Source of the DNA: Chthoniobacteraceae bacterium
GTDB taxonomy: Bacteria; Verrucomicrobiota; Verrucomicrobiia; Chthoniobacterales; Chthoniobacteraceae
Reading direction: 5' to 3'
DNA length: 64,000 nt
Assembly (NCBI GenBank): GCA_028293625.1
Contig: JAQGOL010000035.1
Coordinates: 124,001-188,000 of the forward strand
The notes under the pieces were generated by a model that saw nothing but the letters and a program-made list of their open reading frames with translations, was not told the DNA's origin and made no database searches. Below are positions 24,765 through 41,256 of the stretch, in pieces (position 1 is the stretch's first letter; the number at the start of each line of letters is the position of its first letter). The position numbers and the translations under genes were made by a program.

Positions 24765-25511
24765 ATGTCTTCTGAAAAAGCTGATTTCCTCCTTATCGAT
24801 AATAGCAATTCGTTCACCAAACTGGCGCTTTCGAGCCGGTCGGAGCTTGTAAAGATCCGTAAAATCGCCACGCGCGAGGTCGATGAGAAGCGGCTCGCGG
24901 ACGCGCTGCGCGGATGGCGTTTTGACTCCGTGGTCCTTTCCTCAGTGGTGCCTGAAAAGGGGGATGTGATCGCGCATTTTCTTTCCCATTATCCGACCCT
25001 GCGAGTGAGCTCAAAAGTGCGTCTTGGCGTCGGCATTGATTATCCAAAGCCCAAAACAATCGGCGCCGACCGCCTGGCCAACGCCGCGAGCGCCGCCGCG
25101 TTTTATGGCACGCCGGTCGTGGTGGTCGATTTTGGCACGGCCGTGAGTTTTGACATCATCTCCGCGGAAGGCAATTACGTCGGCGGCGTTATTGCTCCCG
25201 GGCTTGAAGCGATGACTGATTATCTGCATCAGCGCACGGCGTTATTGCCGAAGATCACATTGCTTGAGCCGCCTGCCGCGATTGGAAAATCGACCCGCAA
25301 GGCGATGCTTTCAGGCGCTGTTTATGGCTATCGCGGTCTGGTGCGCCAGATCCTTGTCGAGCTTGGACGCGAGCTCGGCGTGAAAGAAAATCTCAACGTG
25401 GTCGCCACCGGCGGCTACGCGGATCTGATCGGAGCCGGCCTTCCTGAGATCAAATCAATCCGTTCCGATTTAACCCTTCAAGGCCTGCGTATCATTGGAA
25501 CGCTTAATTAA
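24765..25511 (+). CDS. coaX: Type III pantothenate kinase
   Basis: A 248-residue ATP-dependent kinase that makes 4'-phosphopantothenate, the first step of coenzyme A synthesis. Family motifs are GADRLANAASA, VVVDFGTAVSFD and YVGGVIAPGLEAM. The N-terminal phosphate-binding motif, usually DxGNTxxK, reads DNSNSFTK, so the glycine is a serine; this is a mild deviation. The enzyme is cytoplasmic. Its 3' end overlaps the convergent squalene-hopene cyclase gene by 42 bases. The later-pathway gene coaB lies about 4 kb away. Confidence 0.94.
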   Translation: MSSEKADFLLIDNSNSFTKLALSSRSELVKIRKIATREVDEKRLADALRGWRFDSVVLSSVVPEKGDVIAHFLSHYPTLRVSSKVRLGVGIDYPKPKTIGADRLANAASAAAFYGTPVVVVDFGTAVSFDIISAEGNYVGGVIAPGLEAMTDYLHQRTALLPKITLLEPPAAIGKSTRKAMLSGAVYGYRGLVRQILVELGRELGVKENLNVVATGGYADLIGAGLPEIKSIRSDLTLQGLRIIGTLN

Positions 25512-27524
25512 TACAGCACGCGACGCGGGATCAGCCGTTGGCAGTTCGCGTTTTGGGCTCTGGAAATAATTGGGCGCGTGGAAGGTGCCTTCGCGATAGT
25601 TCTTGAAAGTGGCCAGCGCAAGGAGAGGCCAATTGTTTCGATACATATCATATCGAAGATAAAATACGCTCGGGAAGCCGGTGCCGGTAGTTTGCGGTTC
25701 CGGCCAGCTTCCATCGGAGGCTTGAGTGCTGATCAAATAATCGAGGCCGCGCCGGATGCAGCGGCGATCAAGCGCAGACGGACCGGCGGGCTGGCTGGCG
25801 GCAATAAGGCCCATGAGCGCCCAAGCGGTTTGTGAAGGAGTGCTCGGGCCTTTGCCTTTTAAAGTGGGATCATCGTAACTCGCACAGGTTTCACCCCAGC
25901 CGCCATCGTCGTTCTGACAACTTTCCAGCCAATCGCAGGCGCGCACGATCCATTCCTGGCGCATATCCTGGCCGATGGCGCGCAGTCCGCGAAGCACCTG
26001 CCAGGTGCCATAGATATAATTAACACCCCAACGCCCATACCATGAACCGTCGTGTTCCTGCGTGTCGCGAAGATGCGTCAGAGCGCGCTGCACCAGAGAG
26101 GAGCCGCGTTCAAACCCGATATAACCAAGCAACTCAAGACAACGCCCGGTCAGATCGCTGCAGGTCGGATCGAGAATCGCGTTGTGATCGGCAAACGGAA
26201 CATCCTCCAGCCACGGTTTGGTGATCTCTTTGTCAAAAGCAGCCCAGCCGCCATCACGGCACTGAAAACTAAGCAGCCAGCCGAGAGCGCGTTTGAATTG
26301 CTCGGATTGGGCGAAGCTGCCCGAATTATCGAGTGGGATAAACCGCAACGCCATGAGCACCATCATCGTGTCGTCGGTATCGGGGTAAAATTGATTGTTA
26401 AATTCGAAAGCCCATCCGCTTGCCTCGGGGTGGGGATTCTTAAACTGCCAGTCGCCGCGAAAACGCACTTCCTTGGCCGCCAGCCACGACGCCGCGCGCT
26501 GAAGGGAGGAATGCGTGGAAGCGATACCGCTTTCAGCAAGCGCGATCAGGTTAATAGCGGTGTCCCAGACCGGCGAGAGACACGGTGCGATGCGGAAATC
26601 GAGCGGATCATCGACAAACAGCCCCTCGAAATCGCGCTTTGCTTTCACATAGAGCGGATGGTCAGGCGGGTAACGGAGCGTTTTTAAGGCGATCAGCGCA
26701 TTGAGCATTGCCGGAAAAATCGCCCCCAGTCCATCGCTCCCTTCGCCCATGTGGTCCGCCATCCATTTCTCGGCAATCTTGAGCGCTTTCTGGCGCAGCG
26801 GTTTCCATGGAAGGCGGCTCAATGTTTTAAGCAGCCGATCACAACGCAGGAAAAAATTCGGCCATGTTAAAAAACGGCCTTCGCGCGGGACACCCAGAAA
26901 CTGGTGTTCGCGGCCAACCGGATACAACTCATGCAGCTGTTTGTCGGCGGGCAGCTGCCGGGTCGGTTTATAATGGTTGAGAATTGCCAGTGGCACCAGC
27001 ATCGCCCGGCTCCACGAGGAAAGTTCGTAGAGATGGAAAATAAACCAGCGCGGGAAAAAGACGATTTCCACAGGCACCGTGGGCAGATACTTCCAAGGAA
27101 ACTGGCCGAGAAGCGCCAGGTATAGCTTGGCGTAAGTATTCATGCGCGGGATGCCTCCAAGCCGCAAAATACAAGCGCGCGCTTCCTGCATCCAAGGCGC
27201 GGCCGGCGATTGGCCCGCCAATTTTAAAGCAAAATACGCTTTCACCGAGGCGCTCACATCGCTGGGCGCGTTCTCGTAAATATTCCAGCCGCCATCGGTA
27301 TGCTGGCGGCGGCGGATATGGGCCACGCATTTTTCCTCAAGCACGGGATCGACTTCGCCAGCCCAGTGCATGAAGAGCACGTAGTCTGAGCAGAGGGTCG
27401 AATCGGCGAAAAGTTCGCCGGCCCAGTATCCTTCGGGATGCTGGAGCCGGAAAAGATTCTGCTGCGCCCGGCCAATGGCCGTGGTGAGTGCAGATTGCTC
27501 GGAACGGGAGTCGGCTTTTTCCAT
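25470..27524 (-). CDS. shc: Squalene-hopene cyclase
   Basis: A 684-residue class II triterpene cyclase that converts squalene to hopene at the membrane. The acid motif DTDD is in FYPDTDDTMMVLM. Several QW-type repeats are visible, for example DGSWYGRWGVNYIYGTW, DDGGWGETCASYDDP and DGSWPEPQTTGTGFP, followed by the usual C-terminal YDMYRNNWPLLALA. Length is normal. It lies 109 bases downstream of hpnH on the same strand, so the two are likely one hopanoid operon. Squalene synthesis genes are not in the window. The last 42 bases overlap coaX on the opposite strand. Confidence 0.96.
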   Translation of the reverse strand: MEKADSRSEQSALTTAIGRAQQNLFRLQHPEGYWAGELFADSTLCSDYVLFMHWAGEVDPVLEEKCVAHIRRRQHTDGGWNIYENAPSDVSASVKAYFALKLAGQSPAAPWMQEARACILRLGGIPRMNTYAKLYLALLGQFPWKYLPTVPVEIVFFPRWFIFHLYELSSWSRAMLVPLAILNHYKPTRQLPADKQLHELYPVGREHQFLGVPREGRFLTWPNFFLRCDRLLKTLSRLPWKPLRQKALKIAEKWMADHMGEGSDGLGAIFPAMLNALIALKTLRYPPDHPLYVKAKRDFEGLFVDDPLDFRIAPCLSPVWDTAINLIALAESGIASTHSSLQRAASWLAAKEVRFRGDWQFKNPHPEASGWAFEFNNQFYPDTDDTMMVLMALRFIPLDNSGSFAQSEQFKRALGWLLSFQCRDGGWAAFDKEITKPWLEDVPFADHNAILDPTCSDLTGRCLELLGYIGFERGSSLVQRALTHLRDTQEHDGSWYGRWGVNYIYGTWQVLRGLRAIGQDMRQEWIVRACDWLESCQNDDGGWGETCASYDDPTLKGKGPSTPSQTAWALMGLIAASQPAGPSALDRRCIRRGLDYLISTQASDGSWPEPQTTGTGFPSVFYLRYDMYRNNWPLLALATFKNYREGTFHAPNYFQSPKRELPTADPASRAVLIKRSNDTQALKG

Positions 27525-27633
27525 CAGGGCGATTTCAAAAAATCAAACGAGGAGGGTGCACGCGCCGTGCAGAGGACGGTGCCTTGGGAGTGGCTGAGTG
27601 AGATGACGGAGCTTGCCCCGTTTTACCGGCATG

Positions 27634-28914
27634 TCAGGCGGCGGAGCTCGAAGGCGTTTTATCGGCGGTATGCCCGTTGCCGATGCTCACCCCGTTAAAT
27701 GCGGTGATCCCAGTCGCTTCCACCGCGGCCGGCCGCGCTCCGAAGTTGAACTTGATGGTCTTCCACATGTCTCCGGACTTGGACTGAATGCCAAGGCTTG
27801 CAGTCGGCTCATAGCCGCAATGGACCATGCAATTCTCGCACCGGACATCCTTTGCCACTCCATTGACCACCCCGTAGCTGGACCAATTGGTTTTTTCCAA
27901 AAGATCCGAGTAAGTGCGGAAATGACCATCGGTCATCAGGTAACATGGGCCTTTCCAGCCACGGATATTGCGGGTAGGAATCGCCCACGCGCTGCAGGTC
28001 AGGTCGCGTTTCCCGGCCAGGAACTCCAGATAAACCGGGGTACCGAAGATCGGGAACTTGCGGCCCCATTCCTCCGCCTTCGAAAATTTGGCGACGGTCA
28101 TTTTCCGGGTCAGGAAAAAGTTTTCGGGCGAAACCCCCAATCGCGTGACCATATCCTTTTTGGCGGCGTCGTATTCGTAGCCGGGCGAAATGGTATGCCC
28201 ATCGATGCCAAGGCTTGAAAGAAAGGCGAACATCTCCTCGATCTCGTTGGGATCGGTCTCTTTGTAGACGGTCGTGTTGGTGGCAACCTGGTAGCCAAGA
28301 ATCTTGGCCATGCGCATTGCGGCGACGGCTTCTTTAAAGACACCTTCGCGTTCCACAATGAGATCGTGAGTGCGTTCGAGGCCGTCGATATGCACATTCC
28401 AATACATCCAATCCGAGGGGGCAATGACCTTGCGGGCGGGATCCTTGGGGCCTTTGTGGATTTGCTCAACATCCTTATCGGAGAGCAATTCGGCGTTTAC
28501 CAACTGTTCAATGTGATACTCAATGCCCGCCGGCGAGCGCCCAAATTCAAATGCAAGATAGTCGCGCATTTTACGCCGCATAGCTGTGGCGTTGGTGCAG
28601 ATATAAACAATACGCTTTTGATCAAGCAGTCCCGCTACCAACTCCTCTATGTGCGGATAGATCAGCGGTTCGCCTCCGCAGATGGAGATCATCGGAGCGT
28701 TACATTCCCGGGCCGCCTGCAAACAGTCCTCAAGCGGCATCATGTCTTTAATCGACGTGGAGTATTCGCGGATTCGGCCGCATCCCGTGCATGTCAGATT
28801 GCAGGTATGCAGCGGCTCAAGTTGAAGAACTGTGGCGAATTTTGTCACGCCGCGCATTTTTTTCCCGATGATATACGCGGCGATCTTTGCAGTCAGGGCG
28901 AGAGGAAATCTCAT
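27634..28914 (-). CDS. hpnH: Hopanoid-associated radical SAM protein HpnH (adenosylhopene synthase)
   Basis: About 426 residues. The radical-SAM cluster motif is CNLTCTGC (Cys38, Cys42, Cys45). HpnH adds the adenosyl group to hopene on the way to C35 extended hopanoids. Family features are the MRFPLAL start, GGEPLIYPHI, the INxDG-like VHIDGLERTHD and the C-terminal cysteines in CENCMVHCGYEP. The start chosen is the ATG before RFPLALTAK; upstream in-frame sequence is not family-like. The C-terminus extends roughly 40 residues past the last cysteine motif. Location directly upstream of shc supports the call. Confidence 0.95.
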   Translation of the reverse strand: MRFPLALTAKIAAYIIGKKMRGVTKFATVLQLEPLHTCNLTCTGCGRIREYSTSIKDMMPLEDCLQAARECNAPMISICGGEPLIYPHIEELVAGLLDQKRIVYICTNATAMRRKMRDYLAFEFGRSPAGIEYHIEQLVNAELLSDKDVEQIHKGPKDPARKVIAPSDWMYWNVHIDGLERTHDLIVEREGVFKEAVAAMRMAKILGYQVATNTTVYKETDPNEIEEMFAFLSSLGIDGHTISPGYEYDAAKKDMVTRLGVSPENFFLTRKMTVAKFSKAEEWGRKFPIFGTPVYLEFLAGKRDLTCSAWAIPTRNIRGWKGPCYLMTDGHFRTYSDLLEKTNWSSYGVVNGVAKDVRCENCMVHCGYEPTASLGIQSKSGDMWKTIKFNFGARPAAVEATGITAFNGVSIGNGHTADKTPSSSAA

Positions 28915-29076
28915 TGGTTGGTCAGGGATACACGGGTTGGCAAGGGCATGGCAATGGCGGAAACGGAAGCAATGAAGGCGGCGCGCGGACTTTTTATGGA
29001 GCAATAACCCCGGCCGGCTGGTGGACGGACTGCAATTTTCTGTATCACAGAAATAGAAAAACGGCAGCGCTGCAGT

Positions 29077-35377: not shown

Positions 35378-35653
35378 ATGAAAAAGTTCCTCTTCGCCAC
35401 CCTGCTTGCCGCGGGCCTTATTTCTCTGGTTCCTGAAGCGAACGCTGACACCGCGAGACGGTATGGCAATCACGACAGATACTACGGACGTTATAGTTCA
35501 GGGTACCATGATCGGCACTACCATTCATACTACGGACCACGGGTTGTGTATCGCCACCGGCCCGTGCGTGTTTACGAAGATTACGAATACTGCAGGCCCC
35601 GTGTCCGTTACTACGAATCGCGTCCCCGGTTCTCGTTCTTCTTCGGCCTCTAA
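35378..35653 (+). CDS. Small secreted Tyr/Arg/His-rich protein
   Basis: A 91-residue protein with a clear signal peptide (MKKFLFATLLAAGLISLV, cleavage near ANA-D). The mature part is about 68 residues and very rich in Tyr, Arg and His, with repeats such as YYGRYSSGYHDRHYHSYYG and ending RPRFSFFFGL. Similar low-complexity exported peptides are common in bacteria and their function is unknown. The start is ATG 35378; an in-frame TTG three codons earlier is less likely. It is transcribed alone and convergent with the moxR gene. Confidence 0.7.
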   Translation: MKKFLFATLLAAGLISLVPEANADTARRYGNHDRYYGRYSSGYHDRHYHSYYGPRVVYRHRPVRVYEDYEYCRPRVRYYESRPRFSFFFGL

Positions 35654-36651
35654 GCGAACGCCTGCAGCACTTCAGCAATAATGCTGTCGGTTGTGGCTCC
35701 TTCGGCTTCGCCTTCGAAATTAAGTAGAATGCGATGCCGAAGGACAGCCGGAGCGGCCTTGTCGATATCGGCGCAGGAGACGTGGAAACGGTTGTCCAGG
35801 AGCGCGTGAATTTTCCCGGCCAGAATAAGTGCCTGGGCGCCGCGCGGGCTTGCTCCGTAGCGGACAAATTTTCTGGTTCTCTGGGTCGCTTTTTCCGAAT
35901 CGGGATGAGTCGCCATGACGAGGTCGATGGCGTGTGTCTGAATCTCGCTTGCCAATGGCACCTGGCGCACAACGCCGCGCAAGTGAACTACCTCGGCCGC
36001 ATCCTGAAGCACTTTGGAAACGATGGGACGTTCAGTGACTGTGGTGCGATCGAGGATGGTATGAAGGTCAGCAGCACTTGGATAAGGAACTTTTAGTTTA
36101 AAGAAAAAACGGTCCAGTTGCGCTTCGGGCAGGGGATAGGTGCCTTCCATCTCCAGCGGGTTTTGAGTAGCCAAAACCATGAACGGTTCCTTGAGCGGAT
36201 GCTGCGTGCCGCCCACGGTGACGTGATGTTCCTGCATCGCTTCAAGTAGCGCGCTCTGAGTCTTGGGTGTCGCGCGATTGATTTCGTCAGCCAGGACAAT
36301 GTTCGCAAAGATCGGCCCTGACTGGAATTGGAACTCTTTACGGCCGTTCTCATTTTCCATGATCATGTTCGTGCCGATGATATCGGCGGGCATGAGATCC
36401 GGAGTAAATTGAACACGTGAGAACTTGAGGTTGACCGCATCGGCCAGGGTGCGCACCAGCATCGTCTTGCCAAGGCCGGGCACCCCTTCAAGCAATACGT
36501 GGCCGCCGGCAAAAAATGCCACGAGCACCCCTTCAAGCACTTCATCCTGGCCGACCATCATTTTTCCCAGCTCGGCTTTGATCCGCCGGAATGTAGCGCG
36601 GAATTGTTCGACGTCGGATTCGAGTGAGGCGGTGGCGGCTGTGGTAGACAT
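35650..36651 (-). CDS. MoxR-family AAA+ ATPase
   Basis: A 333-residue ATPase with Walker A in EGVPGLGKTM, Walker B in VLADEINRA, and the MoxR-typical QNPLEMEGTYPLPEAQLDRF. MoxR proteins act as chaperone-like remodellers and often pair with von Willebrand and DUF58 proteins. The start is the ATG before STTAATASL; upstream in-frame sequence belongs to the neighbouring gene's region. It lies 37 bases after the coiled-coil membrane protein gene and ends the operon. The usual DUF58 and VWA partners are not next to it here. Confidence 0.93.
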   Translation of the reverse strand: MSTTAATASLESDVEQFRATFRRIKAELGKMMVGQDEVLEGVLVAFFAGGHVLLEGVPGLGKTMLVRTLADAVNLKFSRVQFTPDLMPADIIGTNMIMENENGRKEFQFQSGPIFANIVLADEINRATPKTQSALLEAMQEHHVTVGGTQHPLKEPFMVLATQNPLEMEGTYPLPEAQLDRFFFKLKVPYPSAADLHTILDRTTVTERPIVSKVLQDAAEVVHLRGVVRQVPLASEIQTHAIDLVMATHPDSEKATQRTRKFVRYGASPRGAQALILAGKIHALLDNRFHVSCADIDKAAPAVLRHRILLNFEGEAEGATTDSIIAEVLQAFA

Positions 36652-36688
36652 GGGAGAAACGGTGGCTGGGCGGATTTCGGTTTCTGCC

Positions 36689-38275
36689 TTAGGGGCGGAT
36701 GGCTTCGAAGTAACGCTTGATAAAGAGACGGGAGCCAAGCGGGATTTCTTCCTGCATGACGGCCTCCTGCGCGGTGGGCGCCAGTGACTCGTAAAGCTCC
36801 TTGTAACGCCTGCTTGCCTTGTCGTTGTCCGCACCCGAGGCGCGCAGGGTCGAAAGCGATTCTCCTTCGCCAAGCTGACCCCGAATGGCGGCTTCTTTTG
36901 GTTTCTCCGTTGAAACGGTGGTTTTTTCGCCAAAAGGAGTTTCCGTTGTCCCCTCATCGTGCTCGCTGCCGGGTTGGCCGGATGCGAGCCGCGGATCACC
37001 TGGGTTCGGTGTTCCGCCTTCGTTTTTTTGTCCGGATGGCTCGATTGCCATTGGCAGATCCTTTCCAGCAGTCTCTTTTCCGGGAACCGGTTTATTGCCT
37101 GCACCGTCCTGATTCTCGGCGTATTTGAGATTCTGAATCGCGGAAAGGAGTTCCTGCAGCGTCTGTTTGGAAAGTTGCTGCTGCTGAGGATTCTGTTTAC
37201 CTGGTCCGGATTGCGAACTTTGACGCAGCATCTTTGCGAGACGTTTTAAAGCATCGCTCGACTTTTGGCCCTCGGAGCCAGGCTTCTGGCTTTCGCGCGA
37301 AAGCTGTTTGAGCGCTTCCGAGAGTTCCTTTTTCTTTGCCAGTTCGTCGAGCGCGCGCTGAAGAGCTTCAGCGGCTTTTTCCGGATTCTCCTCTTTCGCA
37401 GCCGATTCCAACGCTTTTGCCGCTTCAGCCAGATTGCCAGCCTGGAGCGCAGCAGCTGCTTCCTTGGTGGCCTCGTTTGTCTCCAATGCCTTGGCGAGCG
37501 CTTTTAATTCTTCCGACGTGGCGTTCATTGGCGGCTTTTGCAGTTCCTGGACAAACTGTTCAAGCGAGGCAAGCTGCCGCATTGCGGACTTGGCGGCTTC
37601 GTCCTGATTGATGGCATTGGTGCCGAGCTCTTTCGCATCCTGGCGCATCTTCGCAGCGAGCTTTTTTAAGGCGTCATCGTTTGTTTCCTCGGCCTTTTTT
37701 TCGGTTGTCGCTGCAAGTTGTGTAAGCGCCCGCACGGTGGCCGCGACCTCTCTCTGGCCGGCAGCTCTGTTTAAGTTGTTTATTGCGAAGTTGTTGCGCG
37801 CATCCAGTTGCAGAAGGAGAAGCGTTGCTATCGGCGCAACGATCCAAGCGCTTTCACGCGGTATCCGGATCCGGATCAGATTGCGAAAGTTGTGCTTCTC
37901 GATAAATGAAGAGCATTCACGCAGGGCAAGGTTCCGCATGTTTTCGGAAGCGGAATTCGAAAAAGTGAGGGCCGTAAGGAAGCGGTCGTTGGTGCCGGCG
38001 ATCCGATCGGCACGCCGTGCCACCTGGCGTAGGGAAAGGCGCTTGAAGTAAGTGATCAGCACGGCTGCGAGCAAAGTCGTGATTGCCGCCCATGTAGAAA
38101 ACCTTGTTTCCCATGGCAAACGGCCCAAAAACCACCGGTTAATTCCCGCCACCACCACGAGGAATGCGCCGAGCACCAAAGTCAACCAGACGAGCGATCC
38201 GACAAAAGTCTGCAAATACATTCTCCTCCGTAGAGTGTGCAGATTGCGCAGAACGTGATTTGTTGAGGTGCTCAT
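36689..38275 (-). CDS. Membrane-anchored coiled-coil protein upstream of moxR
   Basis: A 528-residue protein with two N-terminal transmembrane segments (about residues 19-45 and 58-75), then a long Ala/Glu/Lys-rich helical region with coiled-coil character (for example EELKALAKALETNEATKEA). A Gly/Pro/Glu-rich linker follows, and a conserved-looking C-terminus near APTAQEAVMQEEIPLGSRLF. Similar large helical membrane proteins sit in moxR clusters of planctomycetes and verrucomicrobia, but no function is established. The start is ATG 38275. The gene lies 37 bases upstream of moxR and 70 bases downstream of the G3E GTPase gene. Confidence 0.8.
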   Translation of the reverse strand: MSTSTNHVLRNLHTLRRRMYLQTFVGSLVWLTLVLGAFLVVVAGINRWFLGRLPWETRFSTWAAITTLLAAVLITYFKRLSLRQVARRADRIAGTNDRFLTALTFSNSASENMRNLALRECSSFIEKHNFRNLIRIRIPRESAWIVAPIATLLLLQLDARNNFAINNLNRAAGQREVAATVRALTQLAATTEKKAEETNDDALKKLAAKMRQDAKELGTNAINQDEAAKSAMRQLASLEQFVQELQKPPMNATSEELKALAKALETNEATKEAAAALQAGNLAEAAKALESAAKEENPEKAAEALQRALDELAKKKELSEALKQLSRESQKPGSEGQKSSDALKRLAKMLRQSSQSGPGKQNPQQQQLSKQTLQELLSAIQNLKYAENQDGAGNKPVPGKETAGKDLPMAIEPSGQKNEGGTPNPGDPRLASGQPGSEHDEGTTETPFGEKTTVSTEKPKEAAIRGQLGEGESLSTLRASGADNDKASRRYKELYESLAPTAQEAVMQEEIPLGSRLFIKRYFEAIRP

Positions 38276-38345
38276 CAAAGGGGCTGACGGCCGGCTTGCT
38301 TCTGCTGTCCCTTAACTGCTTCGCCTTGGAAACGGATTTTGGCCG

Positions 38346-39485
38346 CTATTTCCCGAAGGTTGCCAGATCGCGGTGCGTCGGCACAGGTTTGCCAGGTTTG
38401 AAGTGTTCAAGGTGATCGAGGCGCACGGATAATCCTGGCATCGCACCGAGGAGCGCTTCAGCCGCGGCTTGCACCGCTTCGCGCAAGGCACCGGGGTCGG
38501 ATTCAGCGCGCAGATTAACGATCAGTTGTGCGCTCTCGACTGCTTCTTCCAGGGTGAGAGAAAGCTCCGGCACAAAATCGTTTCGCACCAGATTAATGAC
38601 CGCCACGCCACCCAGCCCGCTCTCAGGGCTCAGAGTCATTTTCAGATGCGCGATTTCCGCCCCGGCGAGCCGGGTCTGAATTCCCGTGGCGAAGGTTTCT
38701 AAAACAACGCTCGAGTCAAACCCCGCAGGATCAGCGAGTTGAAATGTGGCATTCAGCCAGCCGAGAAGCGCCTCACCTTCCGCATAGATTGCATAATCGA
38801 CTTCCATCGCAGGCCGGTTTTCCTGCTCCGATCCGGCGATCTGCGCAAACCATTCCTCCACGCCTTGCCCGGTTCGAACTGAGAGATCGCGGATCTGAGC
38901 CTGCGGAAATTCGGTAGCCAGCCTGGCTCGTAATGCGTGGAGGCGGTCCGGATCAAGGAGATCACTTTTTCCCAGGACGATGATATCGGCTTCCTCCAAC
39001 TGTTTGCGATAGATGTAAAGCACCTTGGATGAGAACTTTCCTCCGCTTGTCAGCCCGAAGATTCGCTCGGCACGGATTGGATCGACGAGCACGCTCAAGG
39101 GGGAGATGGTGAAACAATCGCCGTAAATGCGCCGGAGCGGATACGTCACGGTGGCAACAAGATCGGTGCAGCTGCCAACCGGTTCGGCGATGAATACGTC
39201 GGGGCGGGTCGAATCGGTGAGTTTGGCGGCTGCCTCGACAAGAGAATTGAACCGGCAGCAAAAACAACCGCCGGGAATTTCCTCGGTGGCGAACCCTTTT
39301 GCCCGAAGCATCGCGGTGTCAACGAGTTCGCTTCCCTGATCGTTGGTAATAAGGCCGACTCGCAAGCCTTGTTCCGTGAGTTTCTGTGCAAGAGCTGCCA
39401 CGGCGGTTGTTTTTCCAGCGCCGAGAAAGCCGCCAATCATTATATAACGCGCTTTTTGGGGCGTGGGGGGGATCTGTGTGCTCAT
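38346..39485 (-). CDS. G3E-family GTPase (CobW/YeiR type metallochaperone)
   Basis: A 379-residue P-loop GTPase with Walker A in GGFLGAGKTT and the metal-binding CxCC motif in GGCFCCRF, which mark the G3E/COG0523 family of metal chaperones. The C-terminal 130 residues do not resemble the usual CobW_C domain, so the partner protein is hard to guess. The start codon overlaps the stop of the GcvH-like gene as ATGA, so the two are almost certainly translated together. A role in delivering a metal to, or acting with, the GcvH-like protein is an inference from this coupling. Confidence 0.9.
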   Translation of the reverse strand: MSTQIPPTPQKARYIMIGGFLGAGKTTAVAALAQKLTEQGLRVGLITNDQGSELVDTAMLRAKGFATEEIPGGCFCCRFNSLVEAAAKLTDSTRPDVFIAEPVGSCTDLVATVTYPLRRIYGDCFTISPLSVLVDPIRAERIFGLTSGGKFSSKVLYIYRKQLEEADIIVLGKSDLLDPDRLHALRARLATEFPQAQIRDLSVRTGQGVEEWFAQIAGSEQENRPAMEVDYAIYAEGEALLGWLNATFQLADPAGFDSSVVLETFATGIQTRLAGAEIAHLKMTLSPESGLGGVAVINLVRNDFVPELSLTLEEAVESAQLIVNLRAESDPGALREAVQAAAEALLGAMPGLSVRLDHLEHFKPGKPVPTHRDLATFGK

Positions 39486-40000
39486 GGCTGTTCGTCGTCG
39501 GCGTATTGTTGTTTTTCGAGAATGCGATCAATTGTGATGTCAAGGAGTCCGCGATACGTCGCCAGATCGACACAGCGCGCATCCGGCTTTCCTTCAATGA
39601 GATAAAGCCAGCCTTTGCCATACGGATCCTTTCCCACGAGCTCGATATTTTCGGCCAGGGCCGCGTTTCCGGTGATGAACCTGCCGTCGGCAGCGCAGTA
39701 AATGTCGGAAATCGCCTTGAAGCCTTCGATTGAGCCGATGATTTCTCCCGAAGCAACCGGCGAGCCGGGCTGCTTTTCCCATTGATGATCCACAATTTCT
39801 CCCAGCATGCGCGTGGCAAATTTGGTAAAGCCAATGCGCCACTGGTTGCCCTCTTCGCGAGCAAGCCAGAAGTGAGAGGGACTGTAGAGCCACTCGACGG
39901 GAAGATGCGTGACGAAATTCGAACGCTTATAGAATGACGTCTCGACTTTCGCCGCGCCTGTCGTCGAGGCAATTGGGGGAGTGGGGTGGGCGGAATCCAT
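39482..40000 (-). CDS. GcvH-like lipoyl-domain protein
   Basis: A 172-residue protein related to glycine cleavage H protein. The lipoyl lysine is probably Lys95 in GSIEGFKAISDIYCAADG, and the downstream GKGWLYLIEG matches the H-protein C-terminal part. It has an N-terminal extension of about 30 residues. No gcvT or gcvP gene is in the window, so it may serve another lipoyl-dependent reaction. It is divergent from the cysteine desulfurase gene (80 bases) and overlaps the G3E GTPase gene by four bases. The start is the ATG before DSAHPTPP. Confidence 0.83.
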   Translation of the reverse strand: MDSAHPTPPIASTTGAAKVETSFYKRSNFVTHLPVEWLYSPSHFWLAREEGNQWRIGFTKFATRMLGEIVDHQWEKQPGSPVASGEIIGSIEGFKAISDIYCAADGRFITGNAALAENIELVGKDPYGKGWLYLIEGKPDARCVDLATYRGLLDITIDRILEKQQYADDEQP

Positions 40001-40080
40001 GCGAAGCAAACCTATCCATAATTGACCGGGATTTGCTCCGATTATTTGCCGAACTTGCACGCTTGATTACGGAAGGTCAT

Positions 40081-41256
40081 ATGGAACGGCGCCGTGACTT
40101 GACTTCGCTCCTCCCAAACCGCCATGAACCGCGGCAACTTTTCTCCTTCTCCGCCGTGCTTTATTTCGATCACAACGCGTCTTCCCCGCTCTGCGCCCCG
40201 GCTCGTGAGGCCTGGCTTGACGCGGTTTCCCGCTTTGTCGGCAACGCCTCGAGTCCACATCGGCTTGGAGCCCGGGCCGATGCCGCATTGACCGTCGCCC
40301 GCGAAAAGCTGGCGGCGTCGCTTGGATGCAATCCGGGGTCGATTGTTTGGACTTCAGGAGCCACCGAATCGAATAACACCGTCATCCGCCATTTTTGCGG
40401 CGAAGGGGAAGCGTGGGTGTCGACAATTGAACATCCGTGCGTGCTTGAATCGGTGAAGCAGCTCTTTGCCGGGCGATTTCGCCTGATCCCTGTCAATTCG
40501 TCCGGAGTGATGGAGATCGGCTGGTTGGAAACAGCGTTTCGCCGCTCCAAGCCCGCTTTTGTCGGCCTCATGGCGGCAAATAATGAGACGGGGGTTTTGC
40601 AGCCATGGAAGGAGGCCGGAGCATTGTGCCGGGAACACGGGGTGCCGTTTTTTTGTGATGCTGCGCAATGGCTTGGTAAGCTTCCGTCATCCGGACTTGG
40701 CGAATGCGATTTTGTTAGTGGATGCGCGCACAAGTTTGGCGGCCCTCAGGGGGTCGGTTTTCTCAAATGCCCCGTCCGCTTGCGTCCGCTTTTGTATGGC
40801 GGTCCTCAGGAGGATGGGCGGCGTGCCGGGACGGAGAATGTGGCTGGGATTCTGGCGATGGTTGCCGCCCTGGATGCGCGCATGGCCACGGGAGAGGCGG
40901 CGGCAAAGGTTCAACTTCGCAACCGATTTGAGGAGGAATTGCGTCGTCTATCGCCCGGTGTTGAGATTATCGGTGCCGGAACAGATCGACTTTGGAACAC
41001 GGTCTCCGCCGTGATGCCGGAGGTCGATTGCCGCCAGCGATGGGTGGTCAAGCTCGATAAACTTGGGTTTGCGGTTTCCACCGGCTCGGCGTGTGCAAGT
41101 GGGAAAGAAGAGTCCTCCCATGTTTTGCGCGCGATGGGTTGTTCCTCAGCGCCACGGGTGCTGCGTTTCAGCAGCGGTTGGGAAACAACACAGCACGATT
41201 GGGATCAGCTCCTCGATGGGATCCGGCGTGCTTATGCAGAATTGACCGCTCTCTGA
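40081..41256 (+). CDS. Cysteine desulfurase (NifS/IscS family)
   Basis: About 391 residues. A PLP enzyme that takes sulfur from cysteine. The PLP lysine is in SGCAHKFGGPQG and the catalytic cysteine in STGSACASGKEESSH; the short loop and position are as in IscS/NifS-type enzymes. The start at ATG 40081 has GGAAGG four bases upstream. Family proteins usually begin just before YFDHNASSP, so GTG 40156 is an alternative that would remove 25 residues. The enzyme may supply sulfur for iron-sulfur clusters or tRNA thiolation; no isc or suf genes are alongside. Confidence 0.92.
   Translation: MERRRDLTSLLPNRHEPRQLFSFSAVLYFDHNASSPLCAPAREAWLDAVSRFVGNASSPHRLGARADAALTVAREKLAASLGCNPGSIVWTSGATESNNTVIRHFCGEGEAWVSTIEHPCVLESVKQLFAGRFRLIPVNSSGVMEIGWLETAFRRSKPAFVGLMAANNETGVLQPWKEAGALCREHGVPFFCDAAQWLGKLPSSGLGECDFVSGCAHKFGGPQGVGFLKCPVRLRPLLYGGPQEDGRRAGTENVAGILAMVAALDARMATGEAAAKVQLRNRFEEELRRLSPGVEIIGAGTDRLWNTVSAVMPEVDCRQRWVVKLDKLGFAVSTGSACASGKEESSHVLRAMGCSSAPRVLRFSSGWETTQHDWDQLLDGIRRAYAELTAL

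Follow-up and report, generated by a model that had tools for sequence, protein, structure and literature searches.

An H-protein-like lipoyl protein and a G3E-type GTPase of Verrucomicrobiota as probable accessory proteins of an isoprenoid operon

The window, a stretch of 64,000 nucleotides from a Chthoniobacteraceae bacterium, lies on a 593-kb contig (C39) of a 6.8-Mb genome. Its reverse strand carries a gene for an H-protein-like lipoyl-domain protein, here called GcvHL, followed by a gene for a G3E-type GTPase, and a NifS-type cysteine desulfurase gene is transcribed divergently from the pair (Table 1). Gene calls were mechanical, combining the longest open reading frames with profile matches. 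The mechanical frame of GcvHL extends to a GTG at 40060, which gives 192 residues, and that of NifS starts at 39934. The original prediction had described an H-type protein with a lipoylation lysine that overlaps, by four bases, a GTPase with an intact CxCC motif. All of this was borne out: GcvHL matched the GCV_H profile well above its cut-off of 22.2 bits, the lysine of the EGFKA motif is residue 95, and the ATGA overlap and the cysteine motif both recurred in other genomes. A membrane coiled-coil protein and a MoxR ATPase are encoded downstream, as was also stated, but they were not common to the neighbourhoods of relatives. As neither gene is conserved beside the pair, both were rejected as members of the system.

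Table 1. Positions of the features discussed (window positions, except where contig C39 is named)
Feature	Position	Strand	Remarks
GcvHL, H-protein-like lipoyl-domain protein	39482..40000	-	about 172 aa from ATG 40000; PF01597 (GCV_H) 74.8 bits
Lys95 codon (EGFKA), residue number counted from ATG 40000	39716..39718	-	Glu at -3, Gly at +11
G3E-type GTPase, 379 aa	38346..39485	-	Pfam cobW 81 bits; model pLDDT 89.3
CFCC motif, GTPase residues 74-77	39255..39266	-	in 80/80 relatives
ATGA stop/start overlap of GcvHL and GTPase, four bases	39482..39485	-	recurrent in relatives
Region separating the divergent start codons of NifS and GcvHL; putative site of both promoters	40001..40155	.	sequence
Divergent NifS-type cysteine desulfurase	40156..41256	+	about 366 aa from GTG 40156; TIGR03402 248 bits; PF00266 152.6 bits
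Coiled-coil membrane protein; MoxR ATPase (both downstream of GcvHL and the GTPase)	36689-38278 and 35650-37104	-	
Cyclase	191236-192981 (contig C39)		
Toroid protein	near 332186-333070 (contig C39)		
DUF116-polyprenyl synthase	near 342240-344027 (contig C39)		
Radical SAM enzyme	near 352777-354024 (contig C39)		
Two ferredoxin-type proteins	near 355764-357153 (contig C39)		

The GTPase fold and the CxCC motif are common to the window GTPase and the G3E/COG0523 GTPases YjiA, HypB and UreG. The P-loop and the CxCC motif were invariant in all 15 GTPases aligned. The family appears to differ from G3E/COG0523 in three respects. An EPVGSC motif, with a further invariant cysteine, was present in 80 of 80 relatives; the window protein gave no Pfam match to the CobW C-terminal domain; and NKxD is degenerate in many members, being kept strictly in 35/80 and loosely in 73/80, with GKSD in the window protein. 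In the structure model, the C-terminal domain is of the alpha/beta type. Foldseek aligned 359 columns of the model to YjiA (E 9e-13), but with an rmsd of 20, and VIA gave Z scores of 13.2 against YjiA (rmsd 3.4, 193 aligned), 18.5 against UreG (rmsd 2.7, 184 aligned) and 17.8 against HypB (rmsd 2.9, 182 aligned). The best NCBIfam match was to a CobW-related selenoprotein family, NF041053, at 69 bits with a cut-off of 180. The GTPase also occurs in cultured bacteria, for example Chthoniobacter flavus.

Lipoylation of H-proteins depends on a glutamate at -3, the lysine itself and a glycine at +11. All three residues were present in 48 of 48 GcvHL sequences, and GcvHL shares them, together with the fold family (PF01597), with GcvH. 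It is unlike GcvH in its motif, EG[FL]KA (twice EAFKA) in place of ESVKA, in extra conserved segments at both the N- and the C-terminus, in having no gcvT or gcvP partner, and in scoring below the GcvH equivalog cut-offs (73.2 bits against TIGR00527, cut-off 115.85; 82.8 bits against NF002270, cut-off 117). A GcvH-related family, NF045810 of NCBIfam, was matched at 37 bits with a cut-off of 150. The absence of gcvT and gcvP beside the pair had been noted at the outset; the window genome carries a gcvT-gcvH-gcvP set on another contig (C7), and the canonical GcvH of that operon scores 142.7 bits. As the operon thus has its own H protein, GcvHL is not needed for glycine cleavage, and we rejected its assignment as the glycine-cleavage H protein.

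We assessed the distribution of both genes among 288 genomes of the phylum. The GTPase was matched at E <= 1e-20 in 21 genomes, with at least 52% identity in 11, 38-43% in eight and only weakly in two. The GcvHL profile matched 11 genomes at 177-270 bits; the next best match reached 89.6 bits, and matches at and below this score were taken to be mostly canonical GcvH. The 11 GcvHL genomes were exactly those with a GTPase of at least 52% identity, and every one of them also held the DUF116-polyprenyl synthase, at 50% identity or more, and a squalene-cyclase-like enzyme. The eight genomes with the more distant GTPase (38-43%) contained no GcvHL.

The arrangement of these genes varied among the 11 genomes. 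GcvHL directly adjoined the GTPase in three (the window genome, G065 and G235) and lay beside a radical SAM gene in five (G012, G065, G066, G118 and G217), with a four-base overlap in G012 and G118. The neighbours of the GTPase formed a compact set in G012, G065, G118 and G235, consisting of a ferredoxin-type protein, a DUF116-polyprenyl synthetase and a PF00432 toroid protein; three of these four sets included the squalene-cyclase-like enzyme and two the radical SAM gene. The operon genes were scattered in 7/11, including the window genome, which has the full set spread out along contig C39, with NifS, GcvHL and the GTPase inside the window.

Public genomes were scanned with the GTPase alignment, and for the best 80 of 552 passing loci up to 10 kb was fetched on each side. 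Many of these loci lie on short contigs, so that absences there mean little. Among the best 80 of 552, GcvHL was found at 37 loci, the ferredoxin-type proteins at 34, the synthase at 28, the radical SAM gene at 25, the toroid protein at 24, NifS at 19 and the cyclase at 12. GcvHL and the GTPase were on one strand in 36 of the 37 public loci that hold both; the exact four-base overlap was seen in 15 of these 36 same-strand pairs, and a spacing of -12 to +30 nt in 28. Taken together, the operon comprises NifS, GcvHL, the GTPase, a 4-Cys protein, a two-cluster ferredoxin, a radical SAM enzyme, the DUF116-polyprenyl synthase, a toroid protein and a class II cyclase, and the neighbourhoods of the public loci yielded no further recurrent gene family inside it. 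The complete set was present in Verrucomicrobia(les) (L197, L199) and in Acidobacteria/Vicinamibacterales (L249, L253); Planctomycetota (L252, L259, L261) and Hydrogenedentota (L251) had most of it. The survey of neighbourhoods in the phylum and in public genomes therefore upheld a conserved linkage, but as a larger gene set than the two genes first proposed.

The fusion of DUF116 with a polyprenyl synthase was found in 52 of the 288 genomes, including all 19 with a GTPase match at E <= 1e-60. GcvHL was absent from 41 of these 52 cassette genomes, indicating that the core chemistry is independent of it. In many GcvHL-free genomes the five core genes formed a tight cassette with neither GcvHL nor the GTPase (for GcvHL-free loci with the fused synthase see, for example, L089 8956-10725 and L087 9046-10545). 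As the core cassette exists elsewhere without them, both proteins are unlikely to be central catalysts.

A tree was built of 77 synthase sequences, each of at least 350 bits and 380 aa. Public loci were labelled by presence of GcvHL within the locus and the others by its presence in the genome; three were unlabelled. All 35 GcvHL-positive synthases fell within one clade of 38 (support 0.999), and none of the 39 negatives did; the remaining three members of the clade were loci without a GcvHL label. This placement in a single clade marks GcvHL and the GTPase as a lineage-specific add-on. The pattern suggests that an older cassette gained them in a single event and that they later spread across phylum boundaries.

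Several partner proteins are rich in conserved cysteines. Four were invariant in 37/37 of the small 4-Cys ferredoxin-type proteins, eight in 40/40 of the two-cluster ferredoxins and seven in 18/18 of the DUF116 parts of the fused synthase. Among 62 radical SAM enzymes, 61 had the CX3CX2C motif, and three more cysteines were kept in 61 or 62. The operon radical SAM enzyme resembles the SPASM and heme-type families, scoring below all equivalog cut-offs listed. NifS has the aminotransferase class V fold, and its translation shows the PLP-lysine motif HKFGGPQG and the catalytic-cysteine motif STGSACASG; it likewise fell below the equivalog cut-offs. The DxDD motif was present in 30 of 33 cyclases. 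The DUF116 fold gave no Foldseek match at E <= 0.001, and no solved relative was found by sequence; its best VIA match was a type II dehydroquinase (Z 8.1, rmsd 3.5 over 107 residues), a similarity that may reflect a common arrangement only.

Like the hopanoid pathway, with its SHC and HpnH, the cassette combines an enzyme of the squalene-cyclase superfamily with a radical SAM enzyme. It differs in that the supply of squalene is mostly missing. A squalene/phytoene synthase match (PF00494) was obtained in 11 of the 52 cassette genomes, seven of which are among the 11 GcvHL-positive ones, and was absent in the other 41, including four GcvHL genomes. Because this synthase is absent, the most likely substrate of the cyclase in those genomes is a polyprenyl diphosphate made by the fused synthase. 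In addition, a canonical squalene-hopene cyclase gene (TIGR01507, 680.6 bits) and, after it, HpnH (TIGR03470, 374.1 bits) lie within the window at 25470-29004 on the reverse strand, which places hopanoid synthesis apart from the cassette's cyclase. On both grounds we rejected hopanoid synthesis as the function of the system. A UbiA match, meant as a test for quinones, was present in 49/52 and did not discriminate.

Cassette genomes with and without GcvHL were also compared for the heme-copper oxidase family. It was found in 9 of 11 GcvHL-positive and 4 of 41 GcvHL-negative genomes (Fisher p 9e-6), a count that is confounded by relatedness; counted by family, the proportions were 4/4 and 2/18 (p 0.002). 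The COX1 match was absent in two GcvHL genomes (G012 and G118) and weaker in a third (G065).

GcvHL and the GTPase co-occur with the operon genes, form an operon with them, and are an add-on of a single synthase clade. We estimate at about 95% the probability that both belong to this isoprenoid operon as dedicated accessory proteins. The core, consisting of the DUF116-polyprenyl synthase, the class II cyclase, the toroid protein, the radical SAM enzyme and the ferredoxins, would synthesise a polyprenyl chain, close it into rings and modify it through Fe-S and radical chemistry. The mechanism that we prefer for the add-on, held tentatively and at somewhat less than an even chance, is that NifS, GcvHL and the GTPase form a sulfur and metal supply unit for the Fe-S proteins of the pathway. 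NifS would mobilise the sulfur of cysteine; GcvHL, with its predicted lipoylation, would offer a dithiol arm that shuttles either this sulfur or reducing equivalents; and metal would be delivered, at the expense of GTP, by the CFCC GTPase, which is predicted to bind it. Together the three may build or mend the Fe-S or metal centres of the pathway proteins, and such a supply unit would matter most in oxygen-respiring hosts. The cysteine-rich partners and the excess of heme-copper oxidases among GcvHL genomes speak for this reading. Against it stand the many cassettes that do without GcvHL, the distant GTPase in genomes that lack GcvHL, the want of an invariant cysteine in GcvHL, the degenerate NKxD motif, the scattered genes in 7/11 and the GcvHL genomes with an absent or weaker COX1 match.

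In the main alternative, which we hold less likely, an intermediate of the pathway is attached to GcvHL, at Lys95 or at the lipoyl arm, while the radical SAM enzyme acts on it. Lipoyl synthase acts on octanoyl-H-protein and offers an analogy for GcvHL as a substrate carrier. In 5/11 genomes GcvHL adjoins the radical SAM gene, with overlaps in two, and every GcvHL sequence has intact lipoylation residues; both observations favour such a role. Against it, many GcvHL-free cassettes retain the radical SAM enzyme, so a carrier is not required there, and the likeness of this enzyme is to the SPASM and heme-type families at scores under every listed equivalog cut-off.

Lipoyl carriers have a precedent in sulfur metabolism (PMC6067878). 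As described there, LbpA, the lipoate-binding protein of the Hdr-like pathway of sulfur oxidation, has two strictly conserved cysteines. LbpA and GcvHL are alike as GcvH-like lipoyl proteins linked to radical SAM and, in the GcvHL operon, sulfur-mobilising genes. LbpA is linked to hdr-like genes; in the GcvHL operon, a general count of neighbouring gene families gave no recurrent extra one. The two cysteines given for LbpA are absent from GcvHL, which has no invariant cysteine in 48 sequences (the most frequent cysteine column was occupied in 29/48), and we rejected GcvHL as an LbpA. The same comparison bears on a further alternative, in which sulfur enters the isoprenoid product itself through NifS and an LbpA-like lipoyl sulfur carrier, in the GcvHL clade only. 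NifS does occur near GcvHL in several phyla, and the precedent of PMC6067878 points the same way; the lack of the LbpA cysteines speaks against such a carrier, as does the absence of NifS from the fetched stretch in 18 of 37 GcvHL loci, and we regard this alternative as improbable.

The original prediction went on to propose a two-gene module, with the GTPase as a metallochaperone dedicated to GcvHL itself. Its premise of a linkage outside glycine cleavage stood, and the two genes share the same 11 genomes of the phylum sample, the GTPase at 52% identity or more, and often adjoin and overlap in the public loci. The rest did not hold up as well. The pair was non-adjacent in 8 of the 11 phylum genomes, which counts against the pair alone as a module, and a GTPase that lies within the isoprenoid cassette in 4/11, while GcvHL adjoins the radical SAM gene in 5/11, does not appear dedicated to GcvHL. 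The cysteine-rich proteins of the operon offer several better metal clients, and we know of no H-protein that needs metal, which makes this proposal more doubtful still. Lastly, GcvHL could be an ordinary spare GcvH that takes part in lipoate relay or in glycine cleavage, with an unrelated GTPase beside it by chance. This would account for the PF01597 match but is already contradicted by the separate canonical gcvTHP, the scores under the GcvH equivalog cut-offs, the clean score gap to canonical GcvH and the perfect co-occurrence with operon genes.

We found no description of this gene set in the open-access literature searched, subscription papers and preprints being outside that scope. To our knowledge, the combination of genes matches no known pathway, each protein coming from a known family. 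The former orphan pair now belongs to a defined system of eight to nine genes, which places DUF116 and this GTPase subfamily in a context for the first time, gives lipoyl carrier proteins a new setting and predicts a novel isoprenoid, likely ring-shaped, in bacteria of several phyla. The set might represent an undescribed, horizontally spread pathway in which Fe-S and radical SAM enzymes make cyclised polyprenyl lipids, or redox cofactors, of a new class, and into which one clade recruited an H-protein-type lipoyl carrier together with a cysteine desulfurase and a GTPase of its own. Lipoate would then have a use beyond sulfur oxidation and the metabolism of glycine and 2-oxoacids. We consider this broader proposal plausible, if not quite an even bet.

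Two minor observations concern the surroundings of these genes. At three loci the gene immediately upstream of the GTPase looks, by eye, like an aquaporin gene (L031 8797-9801, L032 10585-11403 and L038 8813-9616). The loci belong to two f21 genomes, with PadR-like regulators nearby, and to one genome with the distant GTPase; a second functional link of the GTPase family is possible. Many GcvHL-free cassettes are flanked by a PQQ-like propeller, a NapH-like membrane ferredoxin, a second ferredoxin and a small protein. In raw counts the propeller was present at 30 of 62 loci and the others at 10-13 (for example L140 12181-16430, L034 1-4106 and L119 1558-6605), hinting at a periplasmic redox link of the cassette.
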